From positions 1 to 34,495 of the IMG/VR virus record IMGVR_UViG_3300017782_000086: a DNA stretch of 34,495 nt. One strand, written 5' to 3'. Numbering within the stretch: position 1 is the stretch's first letter; each line of letters opens with the position of its first letter. The notes under the pieces were generated by a model, which made no database searches, had not been told where the DNA came from, and worked only from the letters and a program-made list of their open reading frames with translations. Origin of the DNA: a virus. A program made the translations under genes and the position numbers. Positions 3,616-31,755 of this stretch are shown here, piece after piece.

Positions 3616-4209
3616 CTACTTTTTTCTAACATTGCGTGCTGATACAAAAGATGGTTCTTCTGGATCACGCAATTCATATACAAAAAGTTCGTTAAGTAAT
3701 TCTATCCATTGGTCTTTTTTAATGCGATTGAGAAAAAATCCTTTGTAATGCTCACGGTTTTCAACACCCCAAGTATTATCTTCGTAATGGTCAAATGTAG
3801 GTGGTATTTGTTTCTTGTGATCTGAAAGGTCAATATGTATTCCACCAGACCCTTCATCGTCTATCTTATTATAGATCCCAACAAGAGTATCAAATACTTC
3901 GTCCTCGGGTATATGTTCTAAAACGGAATCACATCTGAACTGTTCTGCCATCAAAGGCATATCGTTTCTGATATCATCAATCACATACATATCATGTAAA
4001 CGAAATGAATACTCATGTTTCTTTATCCAAATGTTTTTAGCTGTTTGAGTATATCCTGCTTCAAGTAAACCTATAAATTCTTTTGAAGCGTTGTGTTTAA
4101 TCGGCCTACGATCTATCCCAACATACGGAACATCTTTTGGAACTGGCCAATGGGTTTGCTTATGTTGGAATTGACTAAGATCGTAACCGCAACCAAAGTC
4201 TATAAACAT
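3616..4209 (-). CDS. Class I SAM-dependent methyltransferase, target unknown
   Basis: 197 residues starting MFIDFGCGYDLSQFQ; the FIDFGCG at the extreme N-terminus is SAM motif I, so the fold begins almost at the first residue. VGIDRRP follows as motif II, and RCDSVLEHIPEDEV is the typical motif IV region of methyltransferase family 11/23 proteins. The start is fixed by the SD-like run aaaaagg before the ATG. Related stand-alone methyltransferases are common in marine T4-like phages, but the substrate (DNA, protein or surface sugar) cannot be told. It lies between uvsW and gene 55, and the 80 bases on its upstream side carry promoters pointing the opposite way. Confidence 0.7.
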   Translation of the reverse strand: MFIDFGCGYDLSQFQHKQTHWPVPKDVPYVGIDRRPIKHNASKEFIGLLEAGYTQTAKNIWIKKHEYSFRLHDMYVIDDIRNDMPLMAEQFRCDSVLEHIPEDEVFDTLVGIYNKIDDEGSGGIHIDLSDHKKQIPPTFDHYEDNTWGVENREHYKGFFLNRIKKDQWIELLNELFVYELRDPEEPSFVSARNVRKK

Positions 4210-5789: not shown

Positions 5790-6071
5790 CTATACTTCAA
5801 TATCTACAAATTCACCTTGTGTATATGCAACAGGAACTTTATCTCCATTTGGTGCATAACGAACAGCAGCTTGCTGTCTGAGTATATTTATCTCTTCTAT
5901 CCGCTCTTCGATTTCCTTAACTCGATAGCTAGCAATTTCAGCTCGAGTTGCCGCTTCAACGACGCGAATACGTTCTTTTTCTAATGGCGGCTTAATGTTT
6001 TCACTGTTAGGATACGTTACAGAATGACCATACATCGATGCTTGAATTGCTTGTTCAGCTACTGATTTCAT
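5790..6071 (-). CDS. Small helical protein between uvsY and uvsW
   Basis: 93 residues, no family recognised. The middle, about 30-67, is highly charged and predicted helical (KERIRVVEAATRAEIASYRV, then KEIEERIEEINILRQQ), followed by a short acidic tail ending EFVDIEV. The ATG overlaps the uvsY stop by one base (TAATG), and uvsW follows after 6 bases. T4 also has small uvsY.-1 and uvsY.-2 genes between uvsY and uvsW, so the position is conserved even though I cannot show homology. It may act with the recombination proteins or simply fill the operon. Confidence 0.75.
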   Translation of the reverse strand: MKSVAEQAIQASMYGHSVTYPNSENIKPPLEKERIRVVEAATRAEIASYRVKEIEERIEEINILRQQAAVRYAPNGDKVPVAYTQGEFVDIEV

Positions 6072-6508
6072 TAGTATTCTCCAGCTTGGAATTTCATAAT
6101 ATCAATTATATTTTTGATAATGAAATTGCGACTATGTATTGTCTTAACGATATCTTCGAGATAGTTTGCACGTACCGAATGATAATCTATTTTAAGACTT
6201 AAGTTGATAATGTCTTTATCGCTCTGTATATATTTATCCATATCTTGGCGAATAACTTTTTTCTGAAAAGGTCGCCAACCCCGTTCGTGCAAATCTTCTT
6301 CTGCCATGGATCCATCAATCCATTCACGTTTTGCCATCTCAAGTTCTTTATAATCATACCGAAGCTTTTTTACTTTTAGCGCTTCCTTATAATATAAATT
6401 GTAATACTTACTATGCAATTCAGGAATTCGCTTTGATTCACCCATAAGGTTTGTTTCATCGATTTTAGAATCTTTTGACCACAGCTCGCTGATATCATCA
6501 GTGCTCAT
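6071..6508 (-). CDS. uvsY: Recombination mediator UvsY
   Basis: Loads the UvsX recombinase onto single-stranded DNA covered by the phage SSB. 145 residues against 137 in T4. The C-terminal stretch KTIHSRNFIIKNIIDIMKFQ followed by AGEY closely matches the T4 ending (KSRGFAIKHIQDMRAFEAGK), and the whole protein is alpha-helical and charged as expected. It is preceded by its own minus-strand promoter (6535-6563) and the RBS gaggagt, and is followed by a small gene and uvsW, the same neighbourhood as in T4. UvsX itself is not in the window. Confidence 0.88.
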   Translation of the reverse strand: MSTDDISELWSKDSKIDETNLMGESKRIPELHSKYYNLYYKEALKVKKLRYDYKELEMAKREWIDGSMAEEDLHERGWRPFQKKVIRQDMDKYIQSDKDIINLSLKIDYHSVRANYLEDIVKTIHSRNFIIKNIIDIMKFQAGEY

Positions 6509-12158: not shown

Positions 12159-12546
12159 AGTAGAAAATTTAGAAGAGGCTTTAACAATAGACTTTGTTAA
12201 CCTATGTTGCGCGGAGCTTGACATAAAGCCTGATAGTATTGAGGTCGTTGGAACTGCATATTTAGCTGACATGGCAGGAGCTGCCAGGAGAACAGGCCTA
12301 TGCATAGATCTTGATGAAAAAAACTATATGGTAATTGCTGCAATAAAAGATCGTACACTTACTGAAATATATACCACTATCGCTCATGAAATCGTACATA
12401 TAAAACAATATATGAAAGAAGACCTCGGTAAACTACTTGATAGCGAAAAGCCAATATACGAAGATCGTTGGTGGGAAAAAGAAGCAAGAGAAAAAAGTTT
12501 AGTTTTTGTGAAAAAATTTGTTGACATTCTCGAGAGAATCAGATAG
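12133..12546 (+). CDS. HExxH zinc metalloprotein, second paralog
   Basis: 137 residues from the ATG at 12133, chosen because GAGGA lies six bases upstream and because it gives an N-terminus as long as that of the paralog. The ATGs at 12130 and 12148 are alternatives. IAHEIVHIKQYMKED carries HExxH and DRWWEKEAREKS the likely third ligand, matching FHEFVHAKQY and PWEKEA in the 10741-11151 gene. Its last codons (VDILERIR) are made by the -35 box and spacer of the 12521 promoter, including the GAATCAG box. The substrate is unknown. Confidence 0.65.
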   Translation: MKFGKMNIKVENLEEALTIDFVNLCCAELDIKPDSIEVVGTAYLADMAGAARRTGLCIDLDEKNYMVIAAIKDRTLTEIYTTIAHEIVHIKQYMKEDLGKLLDSEKPIYEDRWWEKEAREKSLVFVKKFVDILERIR

Positions 12547-12549
12547 ATT
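12521..12549 (+). promoter_or_regulatory. Promoter with GAATCAG box, inside a coding end
   Basis: TTGACA (12521-12526), 17-base spacer with GAATCAG at 12536-12542, TAGATT (12544-12549). The whole -35 and spacer encode the last residues of the HExxH gene. Its leader, 12553-12577, is nearly identical to the leader behind the 30421 promoter. Confidence 0.7.
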
Positions 12550-12579
12550 GTATATATCAAATGGAAAAAAGGAATCACC

Positions 12580-13617: not shown

Positions 13618-13695
13618 GGTCTCTTAGCTCAGCTGGATTAGAGCAAGTGCCTTCTAAGCACTAGGTCGTAGGTTCGAGTCCTACAGAGATCACCA
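13618..13695 (+). tRNA. tRNA-Arg (anticodon TCT)
   Basis: Full cloverleaf: acceptor GGTCTCT pairs with AGAGATC (one G-U), anticodon stem AGTGC/GCACT with loop CTTCTAA, T-arm GTAGG-TTCGAGT-CCTAC, discriminator A and encoded CCA. It reads AGA, a codon that is frequent in these AT-rich genes. Confidence 0.95.
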
Positions 13696-13697
13696 TT

Positions 13698-13782
13698 GCT
13701 CGCATGTTGGAATTGGTAGACAATGAAGACTTAAAATCTTTTGCCTTAGGGCGTACCGGTTCGAGTCCGGTTGCGAGTACCA
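13698..13782 (+). tRNA. tRNA-Leu (anticodon TAA)
   Basis: 85 bases with CCA. Acceptor GCTCGCA pairs with TGCGAGT, anticodon loop CTTAAAA, a long variable arm (TGCCTTAGGGCG) as expected for a class II tRNA, and T-arm ACCGG-TTCGAGT-CCGGT. It reads TTA, also frequent in the window. Confidence 0.93.
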
Positions 13783-13788
13783 TATAAC

Positions 13789-13865
13789 ACTCTTCTAGCT
13801 CAATTGGTTAGAGCAGAACGCTCATAACGTTTTGGTTACAGGTTCGAGTCCTGTGGGGAGTACCA
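13789..13865 (+). tRNA. tRNA with anticodon CAT (elongator Met or lysidine-type Ile)
   Basis: Acceptor ACTCTTC pairs with GGGGAGT (two G-U), anticodon loop CTCATAA, T-arm ACAGG-TTCGAGT-CCTGT, CCA encoded. The anticodon stem (GAACG/CGTTT) lacks the three G-C pairs of initiator tRNA. Elongator Met and the Ile tRNA whose C34 is changed to lysidine share this anticodon and cannot be separated by eye. Confidence 0.92.
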
Positions 13866-29065: not shown

Positions 29066-29094
29066 TTGACATTTGGTTTAGAATCAGTTATATT
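29066..29094 (+). promoter_or_regulatory. Promoter with GAATCAG box
   Basis: TTGACA (29066-29071), 17-base spacer with GAATCAG at 29081-29087, TATATT (29089-29094). From -35 to -10 it differs by one base from the promoter at 30421. Confidence 0.75.
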
Positions 29095-29125
29095 GTTTAT
29101 ATAAGGTAAACAAAGGAACAACCAA

Positions 29126-29979: not shown

Positions 29980-30424
29980 TCCTGCCTTTACGCCTTATCA
30001 AATGTTAAAGCTTGGTATCTTTGACGGTTCTTACTATAAAGATACTAATCCAGATTTTGATCGTAAACCAACGATTACAAAAACAAATCTTTTCATGGAA
30101 GGCGCTTCACAACCTTTATCTGTATGGAAAGAAGCAGGGTGGATTACAAAAGAAGATCCTATGGGATGGTTTCAGTGGTACCTTCGTTACTATCAAGGCC
30201 GTCGTTTACCTGAGCTAGACACTTGGCAAATTAAGCGTTGGAAATCTTTTGGTGCTCGTCATGGTGCTCAAGTAAAAAAGAATGGAAATGGAGATTTAAC
30301 CAAGCGTCGTAAACAACGCCAAGCTTTATTACATTGGGGATTTGATCCAATTCCTGATATTGAAGTAGAAAATAAATTTGATTTTTTATGTTTTTTATGC
30401 AATAAAATGAAAATAAGCTATTGA
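29966..30424 (+). CDS. Conserved phage protein of unknown function (152 aa)
   Basis: Begins MHEFNPAFTPYQMLKLGIFD, then GWITKEDPMGWFQWYLRYYQ GRRLPELD, a tryptophan-rich basic block. The 'FtPyqMLklGiFdGsYy' and 'GWI...DPmGWFQWY.RYy.GRR' pattern is, as I remember, shared by unannotated proteins of marine phages and some bacteria. The C-terminus is basic and ends CNKMKISY with a last TAT-TGA that overlaps the -35 box of the 30421 promoter. A nucleic-acid-binding role is plausible from the many Arg, Lys and Trp. Confidence 0.65.
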   Translation: MHEFNPAFTPYQMLKLGIFDGSYYKDTNPDFDRKPTITKTNLFMEGASQPLSVWKEAGWITKEDPMGWFQWYLRYYQGRRLPELDTWQIKRWKSFGARHGAQVKKNGNGDLTKRRKQRQALLHWGFDPIPDIEVENKFDFLCFLCNKMKISY

Positions 30425-30449
30425 CATTTGGTTTAGAAACAGTTATATT
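30421..30449 (+). promoter_or_regulatory. Promoter of the RNA locus
   Basis: TTGACA (30421-30426), overlapping the TGA stop of the preceding gene, 17-base spacer with GAAACAG (one base off GAATCAG) at 30436-30442, TATATT (30444-30449). The leader that follows (30453-30476) copies that of the 12521 promoter including a Shine-Dalgarno run, yet no protein gene begins after it. Confidence 0.75.
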
Positions 30450-30480
30450 AGTTATATCAAATGGAAAAAGGAATCAGTTA

Positions 30481-30676
30481 AGAACTATTTTTCTCATACG
30501 TCCGTGTAGAGGGCAGGCCACCTGAAAACACAATCTCGCGAGAATAATTCGCCTGTGAAATATCAGTGTCGTGAAAACGTGGAGATGTTAGTTTCAATCA
30601 AACTAGAGCGGCAACGTCAATAAGGCCGTGCGGAGAGATTGGAAATACTAGCTGGGCGTATGAGGAAAATAGTTCT
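30481..30676 (+). ncRNA. Candidate structured RNA 1 with 20-bp closing stem
   Basis: 30481-30500 pairs with 30657-30676 over 20 bases (19 Watson-Crick, one G-U). Inside, 30531-30537 (CAATCTC) pairs with 30635-30641 (GAGATTG). Hairpins form at 30538-30541/30549-30552, 30589-30594/30600-30605 and 30608-30612/30625-30629. No open reading frame covers it. It follows the 30421 promoter and ends four bases before tRNA-Pro. It does not match the conserved blocks of RNase P RNA, tmRNA or SRP RNA that I know. Marine phage RNAs such as GOLLD or ROOL lie beside tRNAs but are longer. Unidentified. Confidence 0.6.
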
Positions 30677-30680
30677 ATTA

Positions 30681-30757
30681 CTCGGTGTAGCTTAGTATGG
30701 TAAAGCGCCTGGTTTGGGACCAGGAGACCGTAGGTTCAAATCCTACTTCCGAGACCA
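30681..30757 (+). tRNA. tRNA-Pro (anticodon TGG)
   Basis: 77 bases with CCA. Acceptor CTCGGTG/TTCCGAG with one U-U mismatch at position 6:67 and a G-U at 7:66, anticodon stem CCTGG/CCAGG with loop TTTGGGA, T-arm GTAGG-TTCAAAT-CCTAC. It lies alone between two structured RNA segments, away from the cluster at 13618. Confidence 0.92.
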
Positions 30758-30761
30758 AAGA

Positions 30762-30934
30762 ATAATGAGGAAAACCCGACCAGGAGGTAAGAACTCATTA
30801 TATAAACCCTAAGTAAGGAAGTGGCCCTCTAACTTAGGTCGGTAAAAGCACTGGTACCGTAGATGAAAACCCAGTCGGTTGTTGCATACGTCAAATGCAA
30901 ATAAGGGGAGAGGCACTGCAGAAAGCCTCTCCCT
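30762..30934 (+). ncRNA. Candidate structured RNA 2 with pseudoknot and 3' hairpin
   Basis: 30762-30769 (ATAATGAG) pairs with 30794-30801. The loop of that hairpin (30776-30781, CCGACC) pairs with 30837-30842 (GGTCGG), which would make a pseudoknot. 30808-30814 can pair with 30832-30838. 30905-30914 pairs with 30925-30934 as a GC-rich 10-bp hairpin with a 10-base loop (one G-U at the base). No reading frame is present. No T-run follows the last hairpin, so it looks like a stabilising 3' end or a processing site rather than a terminator. It may be one transcript with RNA 1 and tRNA-Pro. Confidence 0.5.
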
Positions 30935-30960
30935 CGAAAACTATATAAGGACACAATATT

Positions 30961-31755
30961 ATGTTTTGGAATAAAAAGTCAAAAGATCCAGTAATTGAAT
31001 TTTACATACCAGATGATATGAATGTAGAATCATATAGACCTGTACCGGGAGACCGTAGTATACCGGAATGGTATAGAAAAATACAAACCCGCCTTGATCC
31101 TAAACATTTGCCTGAAAACGTAAATCCTGAAGATTACGCAGGTCCTGGAAAGAGTTTAACAATTAAAAGGTGTATGCCTGTTCTTGATGCAATGTCTGGT
31201 GGATATGTAATAAAAGCTCCAGTAGATATAAACATTAGAGCTTATCAGACGGAAGACGACGTAAAATTTGATGCTGAATGGGGTAAAAGTGGATTTTCAG
31301 ACCACGGCTTTATTCATTATCATGGTACATGGCAATTAGGAACACACTCATTATTTAATACGGTTCCACCATCTGCAATAGCGTTAAAACTTGTTTCTTG
31401 GTTTTGTATTAAAACGCCTCCTGGTTATAGCTGCATGTTTCATAGTCACACCAATAACGATCAGCTGAAAGATTTAGGAATAGAATTTATGTCCGGAATT
31501 GTAGACACGGATACATATAATTTAGAAATTAATTTTCCATTCTTATTTACCAACCTAGATCCTAATGGCATACATATACCTCAAGGTACTCCGCTCGTGC
31601 AAGTCTTTCCATTTAAAAGAGAAACGTGGAGCCATGAAGTTAAAAGCATGGATAATGAATTCGGTAAAAAACGCCACCGTGACATTACTGTTTTACAGAG
31701 TGTGTTTCACGGTGGCTATCGTAAACTGTTTCGTAAACCAAAAAAGTTTAAATAA
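30961..31755 (+). CDS. Conserved protein of unknown function (264 aa), possibly DUF6065-like
   Basis: Begins MFWNKKSKDPVIEFYIPDDM. The 'PgDRSIPEWYRKI' motif, CMPVLDAMSGGYVIKAPVDI and the later WFCIKTPPGYSCMFHSHTNN are, from memory, typical of a widespread unannotated family in marine phages (DUF6065, uncertain). It has no signal peptide. Four His (HYHGTWQLG, FHSH) might bind metal in a cupin-like barrel, though this is only a guess. Ribosome site ataaggacacaatatt lies in the tail of the RNA locus. A 10-bp inverted repeat sits near its 3' end. Confidence 0.6.
   Translation: MFWNKKSKDPVIEFYIPDDMNVESYRPVPGDRSIPEWYRKIQTRLDPKHLPENVNPEDYAGPGKSLTIKRCMPVLDAMSGGYVIKAPVDINIRAYQTEDDVKFDAEWGKSGFSDHGFIHYHGTWQLGTHSLFNTVPPSAIALKLVSWFCIKTPPGYSCMFHSHTNNDQLKDLGIEFMSGIVDTDTYNLEINFPFLFTNLDPNGIHIPQGTPLVQVFPFKRETWSHEVKSMDNEFGKKRHRDITVLQSVFHGGYRKLFRKPKKFK

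Follow-up and report, generated by a model that had tools for sequence, protein, structure and literature searches.

GOLLD and ROOL, RNAs of phages and prophages, form RNA-only nanocages (PMC12286853). For OLE and GOLLD, the covariation of adjacent nucleotides in palindromic loops has been argued to reflect a kissing-loop homodimer, the symmetric kissing loop of OLE carrying the tetranucleotide palindromes GGCC, GAUC or AGCU; OLE moreover binds Oap proteins (PMC12286853). The phi29 pRNA is likewise named among the multimerising RNAs (PMC12286853). Here we describe two RNA families, RNA1 and RNA2, which flank a tRNA gene in a T4-like phage and which, by analogy with OLE and GOLLD, would work through symmetric kissing loops while lying outside GOLLD, ROOL and any Rfam family tested. 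Palindromic loops with covarying adjacent nucleotides, the signature of a symmetric kissing loop, were found at alignment columns 36-37 of RNA1 and at columns 36-37 and 137-138 of RNA2.

With GOLLD and ROOL the two RNAs share that they are phage-encoded, structured and often tRNA-adjacent, and with loop L21a of GOLLD the adjacent-nucleotide covariation. The initial annotation had also drawn the comparison with GOLLD and ROOL, on account of tRNA proximity; the comparison is apt, but it is the covariation in palindromic loops that makes it so, and not the neighbouring tRNA. In contrast to GOLLD, which often exceeds 800 nt, RNA1 measures 91-223 nt in the copies parsed and the core of RNA2 about 130 nt; GOLLD and ROOL furthermore have another fold and sequence, and the oligomer of RNA1 and RNA2 is a prediction. 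RNA1 resembles OLE in carrying GGCC and GAUC in a similar type of loop, whereas the binding of Oap proteins is a trait of OLE and neither RNA1 nor RNA2 has an Rfam OLE match. The phi29 pRNA is a small multimerising phage RNA as well; its loop-loop contacts, however, form between two different complementary loops and it has a role in packaging, and for RNA1 and RNA2 no Rfam match to it was found. The HIV-1 DIS bears a palindrome with purine flanks in its apical loop, as do the RNA1 loops of the 11-nt type (GAA or GCA, then NNNN, then A), but the RNA1 core spans 4 nt and RNA and virus are unrelated, which makes this an analogy and not a homology.

By position, the closest analogues are T4 rnaC and rnaD (the small stable RNAs species 1 and 2), a pair of small RNAs beside a tRNA in a T4-type phage. 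Homology was rejected by covariance model scores, the RNA2 and RNA1 models reaching at best 8.0 and 10.4 bits on T4 69500-73500 with filters off, both outside rnaC and rnaD. T4 (L124) rnaD and the RNA2 described here do share a 17-nt match, CCCTRAGTAAGGAAKTG, equalled in 1 of 300 shuffles and negative by covariance model, and an additional similarity, GCCCTCTWAC.

The window, i.e. the whole stretch of 34,495 nucleotides analysed here, covers 34.5 kb of the genome of a T4-like phage, with genes for gp46/47-type SbcCD, UvsW and topoisomerase II. We call these phages marine judging from the context of relatives and from gene content. The locus of interest is laid out as follows.

Ending at 30424: 152-aa ORF, left border of the gene-free stretch
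30421-30449, + strand: putative sigma-70-like promoter, TTGACA-17-TATATT, before RNA1, identified by consensus match
30481-30676, + strand: RNA1, new structured RNA family (covariance model match 30483-30674, 151 bits)
30681-30757, + strand: tRNA-Pro, anticodon TGG (ARAGORN; Rfam 66.8 bits)
30762-30937, + strand: RNA2, 5' stem-loop plus core, 3' of tRNA-Pro
30961-31755, + strand: 264-aa ORF, PHROG 7084 with weak DUF6065, 3' of RNA2, a neighbour outside the RNAs

No credible ORF was found between 30425 and 30960, the longest ones listed there having at most 41 aa, in agreement with the initial annotation, which had reported about 480 bases devoid of a credible protein gene. Its promoter and its tRNA-Pro were recovered too, the former by a consensus scan (11 of 12 consensus bases), the latter by both ARAGORN and Rfam. 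The gap between the 3' end of RNA1 and tRNA-Pro amounts to 4 nt. Repeats of the promoter region occur at 29070-29118 and 12535-12577 (82-84% identity), possibly a promoter class common to several sites of the phage. A second tRNA cluster (Arg, Leu, Met) lies 17 kb away at 13618-13865. The nearest relative of the locus, contig L050, shows the same order of RNA1, tRNA-Pro, RNA2 and a homolog of the 264-aa protein, its RNA1 belonging to a different subtype; a search with the neighbouring proteins returned distant relatives only.

The Rfam search that had been proposed matched nothing but the tRNA in the window, at the gathering threshold and at E≤5; 12 relatives yielded nothing beyond tRNA and tmRNA, and two short regions no match at E≤1. 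This holds for the GOLLD and ROOL models in all of these searches, and for group I introns and other known ribozymes in the window at E≤5 and the short region at E≤1. A blastn search of 50,697 phage records returned no homolog of RNA1; RNA2 had no match in the same number of phage records and none in Rfam, and a single pattern scan of GTDB genomes did not return RNA1. Together with the abundant compensatory change in homologous loci, the lack of any Rfam match at permissive E-values supports the earlier proposal of two structured RNAs of a new type. Beyond the initial annotation, which had a single sequence at its disposal, relatives reveal that both RNAs recur as families and that their loops are palindromic. 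Judged from comparative sequence data, RNA1 and RNA2 are two recurrent structured RNA families with the secondary structures given below.

RNA1 consists of a long closing helix that encloses several arms:

30481-30503, + strand: closing helix P1, 5' strand, pairing with 30654-30676
30504-30531, + strand: P2 arm with apical loop; compensatory GUG/CAC to AUG/CAU
30516-30519, + strand: predicted kissing-loop tetranucleotide GGCC; self-complementary in one register, with adjacent-column covariation
30532-30587, + strand: P3 module of variable size, its length in other copies being 4 to 89 nt; pairs supported
30588-30651, + strand: P4 arm, UUAGU/ACUAG and CAAUC/GAUUG, bearing the P5 hairpin with the conserved loop AACGUCAAUAAG; covariation
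30654-30676, + strand: closing helix P1, 3' strand, pairing with 30481-30503

The fold of RNA1 is far more stable than expected (z = -5.75; none of 200 shuffles equally stable). The stem of 20 bp that had been seen to close 30481-30676 proved slightly longer, with 23 bp in the minimum free energy structure, and P1 is given as 21-23 bp. Compensatory change in homologous loci, set beforehand as the check on this stem, is abundant, with two-sided changes at 13 of 21 P1 pairs, so that the refuting outcome named in advance, a lack of such changes, does not apply; P2, P3, P4 and P5 likewise show compensation. In an alignment of 35 sequences 97.8% of the cells are paired, and significance was assessed by shuffles and register controls. 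Hereby, 22 pairs have changed on both sides, where shuffles average 11.0, and 135 cells are double-changed against 33.9 in shuffles, values that none of 500 shuffles reached; pairing falls to about 40% when the partners are slid by 1-3 columns. Since G-U pairs are included, the covariation acts at the RNA level. The single-strand segments are highly conserved.

The P5 extension of the P4 arm is wholly absent in L093 and L098 and is replaced by a hexamer-palindrome loop in L089 and L097 (GAGCUC) and in L090 (CUGCAG). Because it is lost or swapped as a unit, P4 must be a nested helix. A hairpin pseudoknot UUAGUUU-CAAUC-AAACUAG was rejected in view of uncompensated A.C mismatches in L091, L092, L094, L095 and L105 and of the nested helix in L089, L090, L093 and L098. 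A group I-like core was dismissed as well, given the missing Rfam match, the intergenic position and the nested P4.

Homologs of RNA1 were collected by exact-pattern scans of IMG/VR, in which an exact 21-mer from the P2 arm matched 15 contigs, a core pattern 75 contigs (including L047, a chance match) and two broader patterns a further 27 loci. The family thus obtained comprises about 100 homologous contigs. For both RNA1 and RNA2, distant relatives are undersampled because of the exact patterns, and contig counts take in near-identical sequences. RNA1 has the same orientation as the genes around it, tightly fitted between them, and its near-identical cores stand in flanks that are unrelated among contigs. 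By covariance model search it occurs just once in 25 of 26 whole contigs of up to 275 kb, at differing loci, and each locus holds one copy except in L088, where a tandem second RNA1-like copy (419-531, - strand, 46 bits) has the loop CCGG and the adjoining copy GGCC. An ORF follows closely 3' in 68 of 100 copies, whereas a tRNA (Thr, Pro, Asn or Trp) follows at 3-7 nt in 14 of 100.

Further RNAs were observed on contigs with RNA1. Permuted tmRNA genes, with tags such as ANDNVAPSGYALAA, are present in L028 (9451-9844), L064 (6549-6949) and L070 (6787-7181), and others in L037 (7460-7922) and L059 (1252-1586); those of L028 and L064 match the Rfam permuted and alphaproteobacterial tmRNA models. 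Directly 3' of RNA1 in L033 (oriented 5974-6080) lies a second small RNA of about 105 nt with a P1-like stem GACTTTTTTACTCAGCGTC / GGCGTTGAGTAAAGGAGTT, an RNA1-like GAGGGGACCGGGCCTAAA arm and another interior, which the RNA1 covariance model does not match. About 140 unannotated nucleotides between RNA1 and the next ORF in L015 (oriented 3930-4075), missing from the close relatives L013 and L023, are probably structured. In L031 and L083 a conserved non-coding segment about 130 nt 5' of RNA1, ending in GGCAGCCGGGGCGGGGGGCGTG, looks like an additional structured RNA.

The apical loop of RNA1 varies in sequence while remaining palindromic. Its central four bases read GGCC, GAUC, GUAC, GCGC or CCGG, with the wobble forms UCGG and GGCU. 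At one register all 13 distinct loops are self-complementary when G-U pairs are included, 11 of them by Watson-Crick pairs, while any other register gives 0-2 of 13. The adjacent columns 36 and 37 hold GC 17, AU 10, CG 4 and UA 4 times, counts that overstate the number of independent events because relatives may have inherited the loop in common or acquired it by recombination. In a ranking of all column pairs they are the second strongest covarying pair, with one P1 pair ahead, and no better partner for them exists among all alignment columns. As neighbouring nucleotides cannot pair within one chain, the partner should be a second molecule bearing an identical loop. When the loop columns are left out of tree building, parsimony requires at least 14 switches of the tetranucleotide, a count that includes any module exchange and depends on a short alignment. 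The RNA1 types of L089 and L090 carry two palindromic loops each.

RNA2 comprises the following elements:

30762-30801, + strand: 5' stem-loop AUAAUGAG...CUCAUUAU, predicted by minimum free energy and kept in L050
30804-30937, + strand: core, new structured RNA family, about 130 nt (model search 144 bits)
30808-30838, + strand: P1 hairpin, apex GGCC at 30823-30826
30840-30875, + strand: H-type pseudoknot, CGGU/ACCG (30840-30843 with 30856-30859) and ACUGG/CCAGU (30850-30854 with 30871-30875)
30882-30900, + strand: hairpin UUGCAU/AUGCAA; UUGCA to CUGCA with UGCAA to UGCAG, and UCUACU/AGUAGA in L091
30906-30933, + strand: terminal GC hairpin, loop palindrome CUGCAG at 30916-30921, stem pairs compensate

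An exact RNA2 21-mer scan gave zero matches because the 5' hairpin is not conserved, and a pattern drawn outside the terminal loop found the family in 55 IMG/VR contigs. In L011, L086 and L088 another hairpin takes the place of the 5' stem-loop; 30762-30801 is assigned to RNA2 provisionally. The homologs sit directly 5' of RNA1 or near tRNAs, 29 of 56 copies lying within 300 nt of a tRNA. RNA2 alone folds with z = -2.56, the pseudoknot being left out, and its hairpins compensate in an alignment of 10 sequences. The possible pseudoknot of the initial annotation gains support from relatives such as L011, in which CGGU/ACCG becomes UGGU/ACCA and ACUGG/CCAGU becomes UCUGG/CCAGA, both strands of each helix having changed; the GC-rich 3' hairpin, placed before at 30905-30934, is present at 30906-30933.

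Two candidate kissing loops are predicted in RNA2, the P1 apex and the terminal loop. The former is palindromic in most relatives (GUAC, UCGA, ACGU, UUAA, GCGC) and contains, at the adjacent columns 36-37, the strongest covarying pair among 43 distinct sequences. The latter is a perfect hexamer palindrome in 56 of 56 copies (55 contigs and the window), namely CUGCAG in 44, CCUAGG in 9 and CUCGAG in 3; its central columns 137-138 rank sixth in covariation, and the hexamer switched at least 7 times by parsimony on a tree built without its columns. Overall, the comparative data on both families show that their loops are under selection for self-complementarity. Hetero-kissing between RNA1 and RNA2 was rejected, as the RNA1 loops vary while RNA2 stays CUGCAG in L050, L064, L084, L086, L088, L091 and L098. 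RNase P-like motifs noticed by eye in RNA2 were discarded, being not kept in relatives and without Rfam match. In L011 (2308-2438) and L128 a T-run follows the terminal palindromic hairpin, which may also be a terminator there. A divergent RNA2-like RNA adjoining a tRNA in L102 (698-820, - strand, 21.9 bits) has the terminal hairpin loop CCUAGG.

We regard it as probable, on the whole, that RNA1 and RNA2 are phage non-coding RNAs with covarying folds and self-complementary loops that are released, associate with themselves and act in trans. The promoter at 30421 would drive one transcript that comprises RNA1, tRNA-Pro and RNA2 and probably also takes in the 264-aa gene. RNA1 would be released by virtue of its P1 helix of 21-23 bp and of RNase P cutting the 5' end of the tRNA, and RNA2 by processing of the tRNA 3' end together with its own 3' hairpin, both becoming separate stable molecules. 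A single precursor processed at the tRNA, as proposed initially, is plausible at this locus, because the promoter precedes RNA1, only 4 nt separate it from tRNA-Pro and a tRNA begins 3-7 nt behind 14 of 100 copies; it cannot be the general model, since RNA1 is in most cases followed by an ORF and has no tRNA close by. Comparative sequence strongly suggests that two molecules of one kind then associate through kissing contacts between their matching palindromic loops, one per RNA1 (two in the L089 and L090 types) and two per RNA2, which with two such loops could form chains or closed rings. The homo-oligomer would act in trans during infection and not as regulator of one neighbouring gene, a view supported by the single RNA1 copy at differing loci. 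Our best guess for its role, by analogy, is an RNA scaffold or a sequestering particle like GOLLD or ROOL.

The main rival is a cis-acting 5' leader, in which P1 hides the Shine-Dalgarno (SD) sequence or serves as RNase III site and RNA1 thus controls or insulates the next gene or tRNA. This reading, which we hold to be unlikely, accounts for an overlap seen at part of the loci: in 41 of 68 ORF-followed loci, against 0 of 14 tRNA-followed ones, the P1 3' strand contains GGAG, usually with 4-5 nt between the end of P1 and the start codon. Such an arrangement, together with the prevalence of ORFs behind RNA1, would be shown by a cis element as well and weighs against trans action; the tight fit on the coding strand also suits a leader. 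The P1 5' strand tracks these changes of the 3' strand, so that pairing is preserved irrespective of what lies behind. However, P1 lacks the SD at 27 of 68 ORF loci and at 14 of 14 tRNA loci. Moreover, what follows RNA1 has nothing in common among loci (genes of several families; tRNAs Thr, Pro, Asn and Trp), the gene most often found there is also known in places that lack RNA1 and then has its own SD, RNA1 is present once per phage, and a leader leaves the palindromic-loop covariation unexplained.

The preferred reading, self-association of a trans-acting RNA, has its own weak points in the shortness of a 4-nt kissing core, for which OLE nevertheless provides a precedent, and in that a dimeric protein could recognise the palindromic loops instead. 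GATC, GGCC, CCGG, GTAC and CTGCAG are familiar restriction-site sequences, so that several loop palindromes would fit sites bound by a dimeric protein or acting at the DNA level in place of RNA-RNA contacts. Yet each palindrome occupies precisely the tip of a conserved RNA hairpin, and their sequence is free to vary while self-complementarity is kept, whereas a protein site should hold its sequence; we therefore consider this alternative highly improbable. Least probable of all appears a mobile element, an RNA or DNA cassette resembling an intron or a MITE, that spreads among intergenic sites. The nearly identical cores in unrelated flanks and the swapped or deleted modules would suit it, but its occurrence as a single copy in 25 of 26 contigs, covariation at the RNA level including G-U pairs, the lack of matches to Rfam introns at E≤5 and E≤1, a position between genes in the loci inspected and highly conserved single-strand segments argue against it.

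Going further, and with some reservation, we consider it possible that marine T4-like phages encode a suite of small RNAs which self-assemble into homo-oligomers free of protein, each with a lineage-specific palindromic loop as an 'address' that is always self-complementary, so that co-resident RNAs would assemble only with themselves. Co-resident cases are the tandem RNA1 copies of L088 (GGCC and CCGG) and RNA1 together with RNA2 in one genome.

To our knowledge, few natural RNA homo-oligomers have been described, and most of these are very large RNAs. RNA1 and RNA2 add two families of small RNAs for which the comparative evidence of self-pairing loops is clear, from uncultured, mostly marine phages. 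The presence of either RNA flags RNA islands, where tRNAs occur along with permuted tmRNAs and more unannotated RNAs, in phages that are missing from isolate collections. Because RNAs of 90-230 nt are easily transcribed, mutated and imaged, the role of phage RNA assemblies becomes testable.
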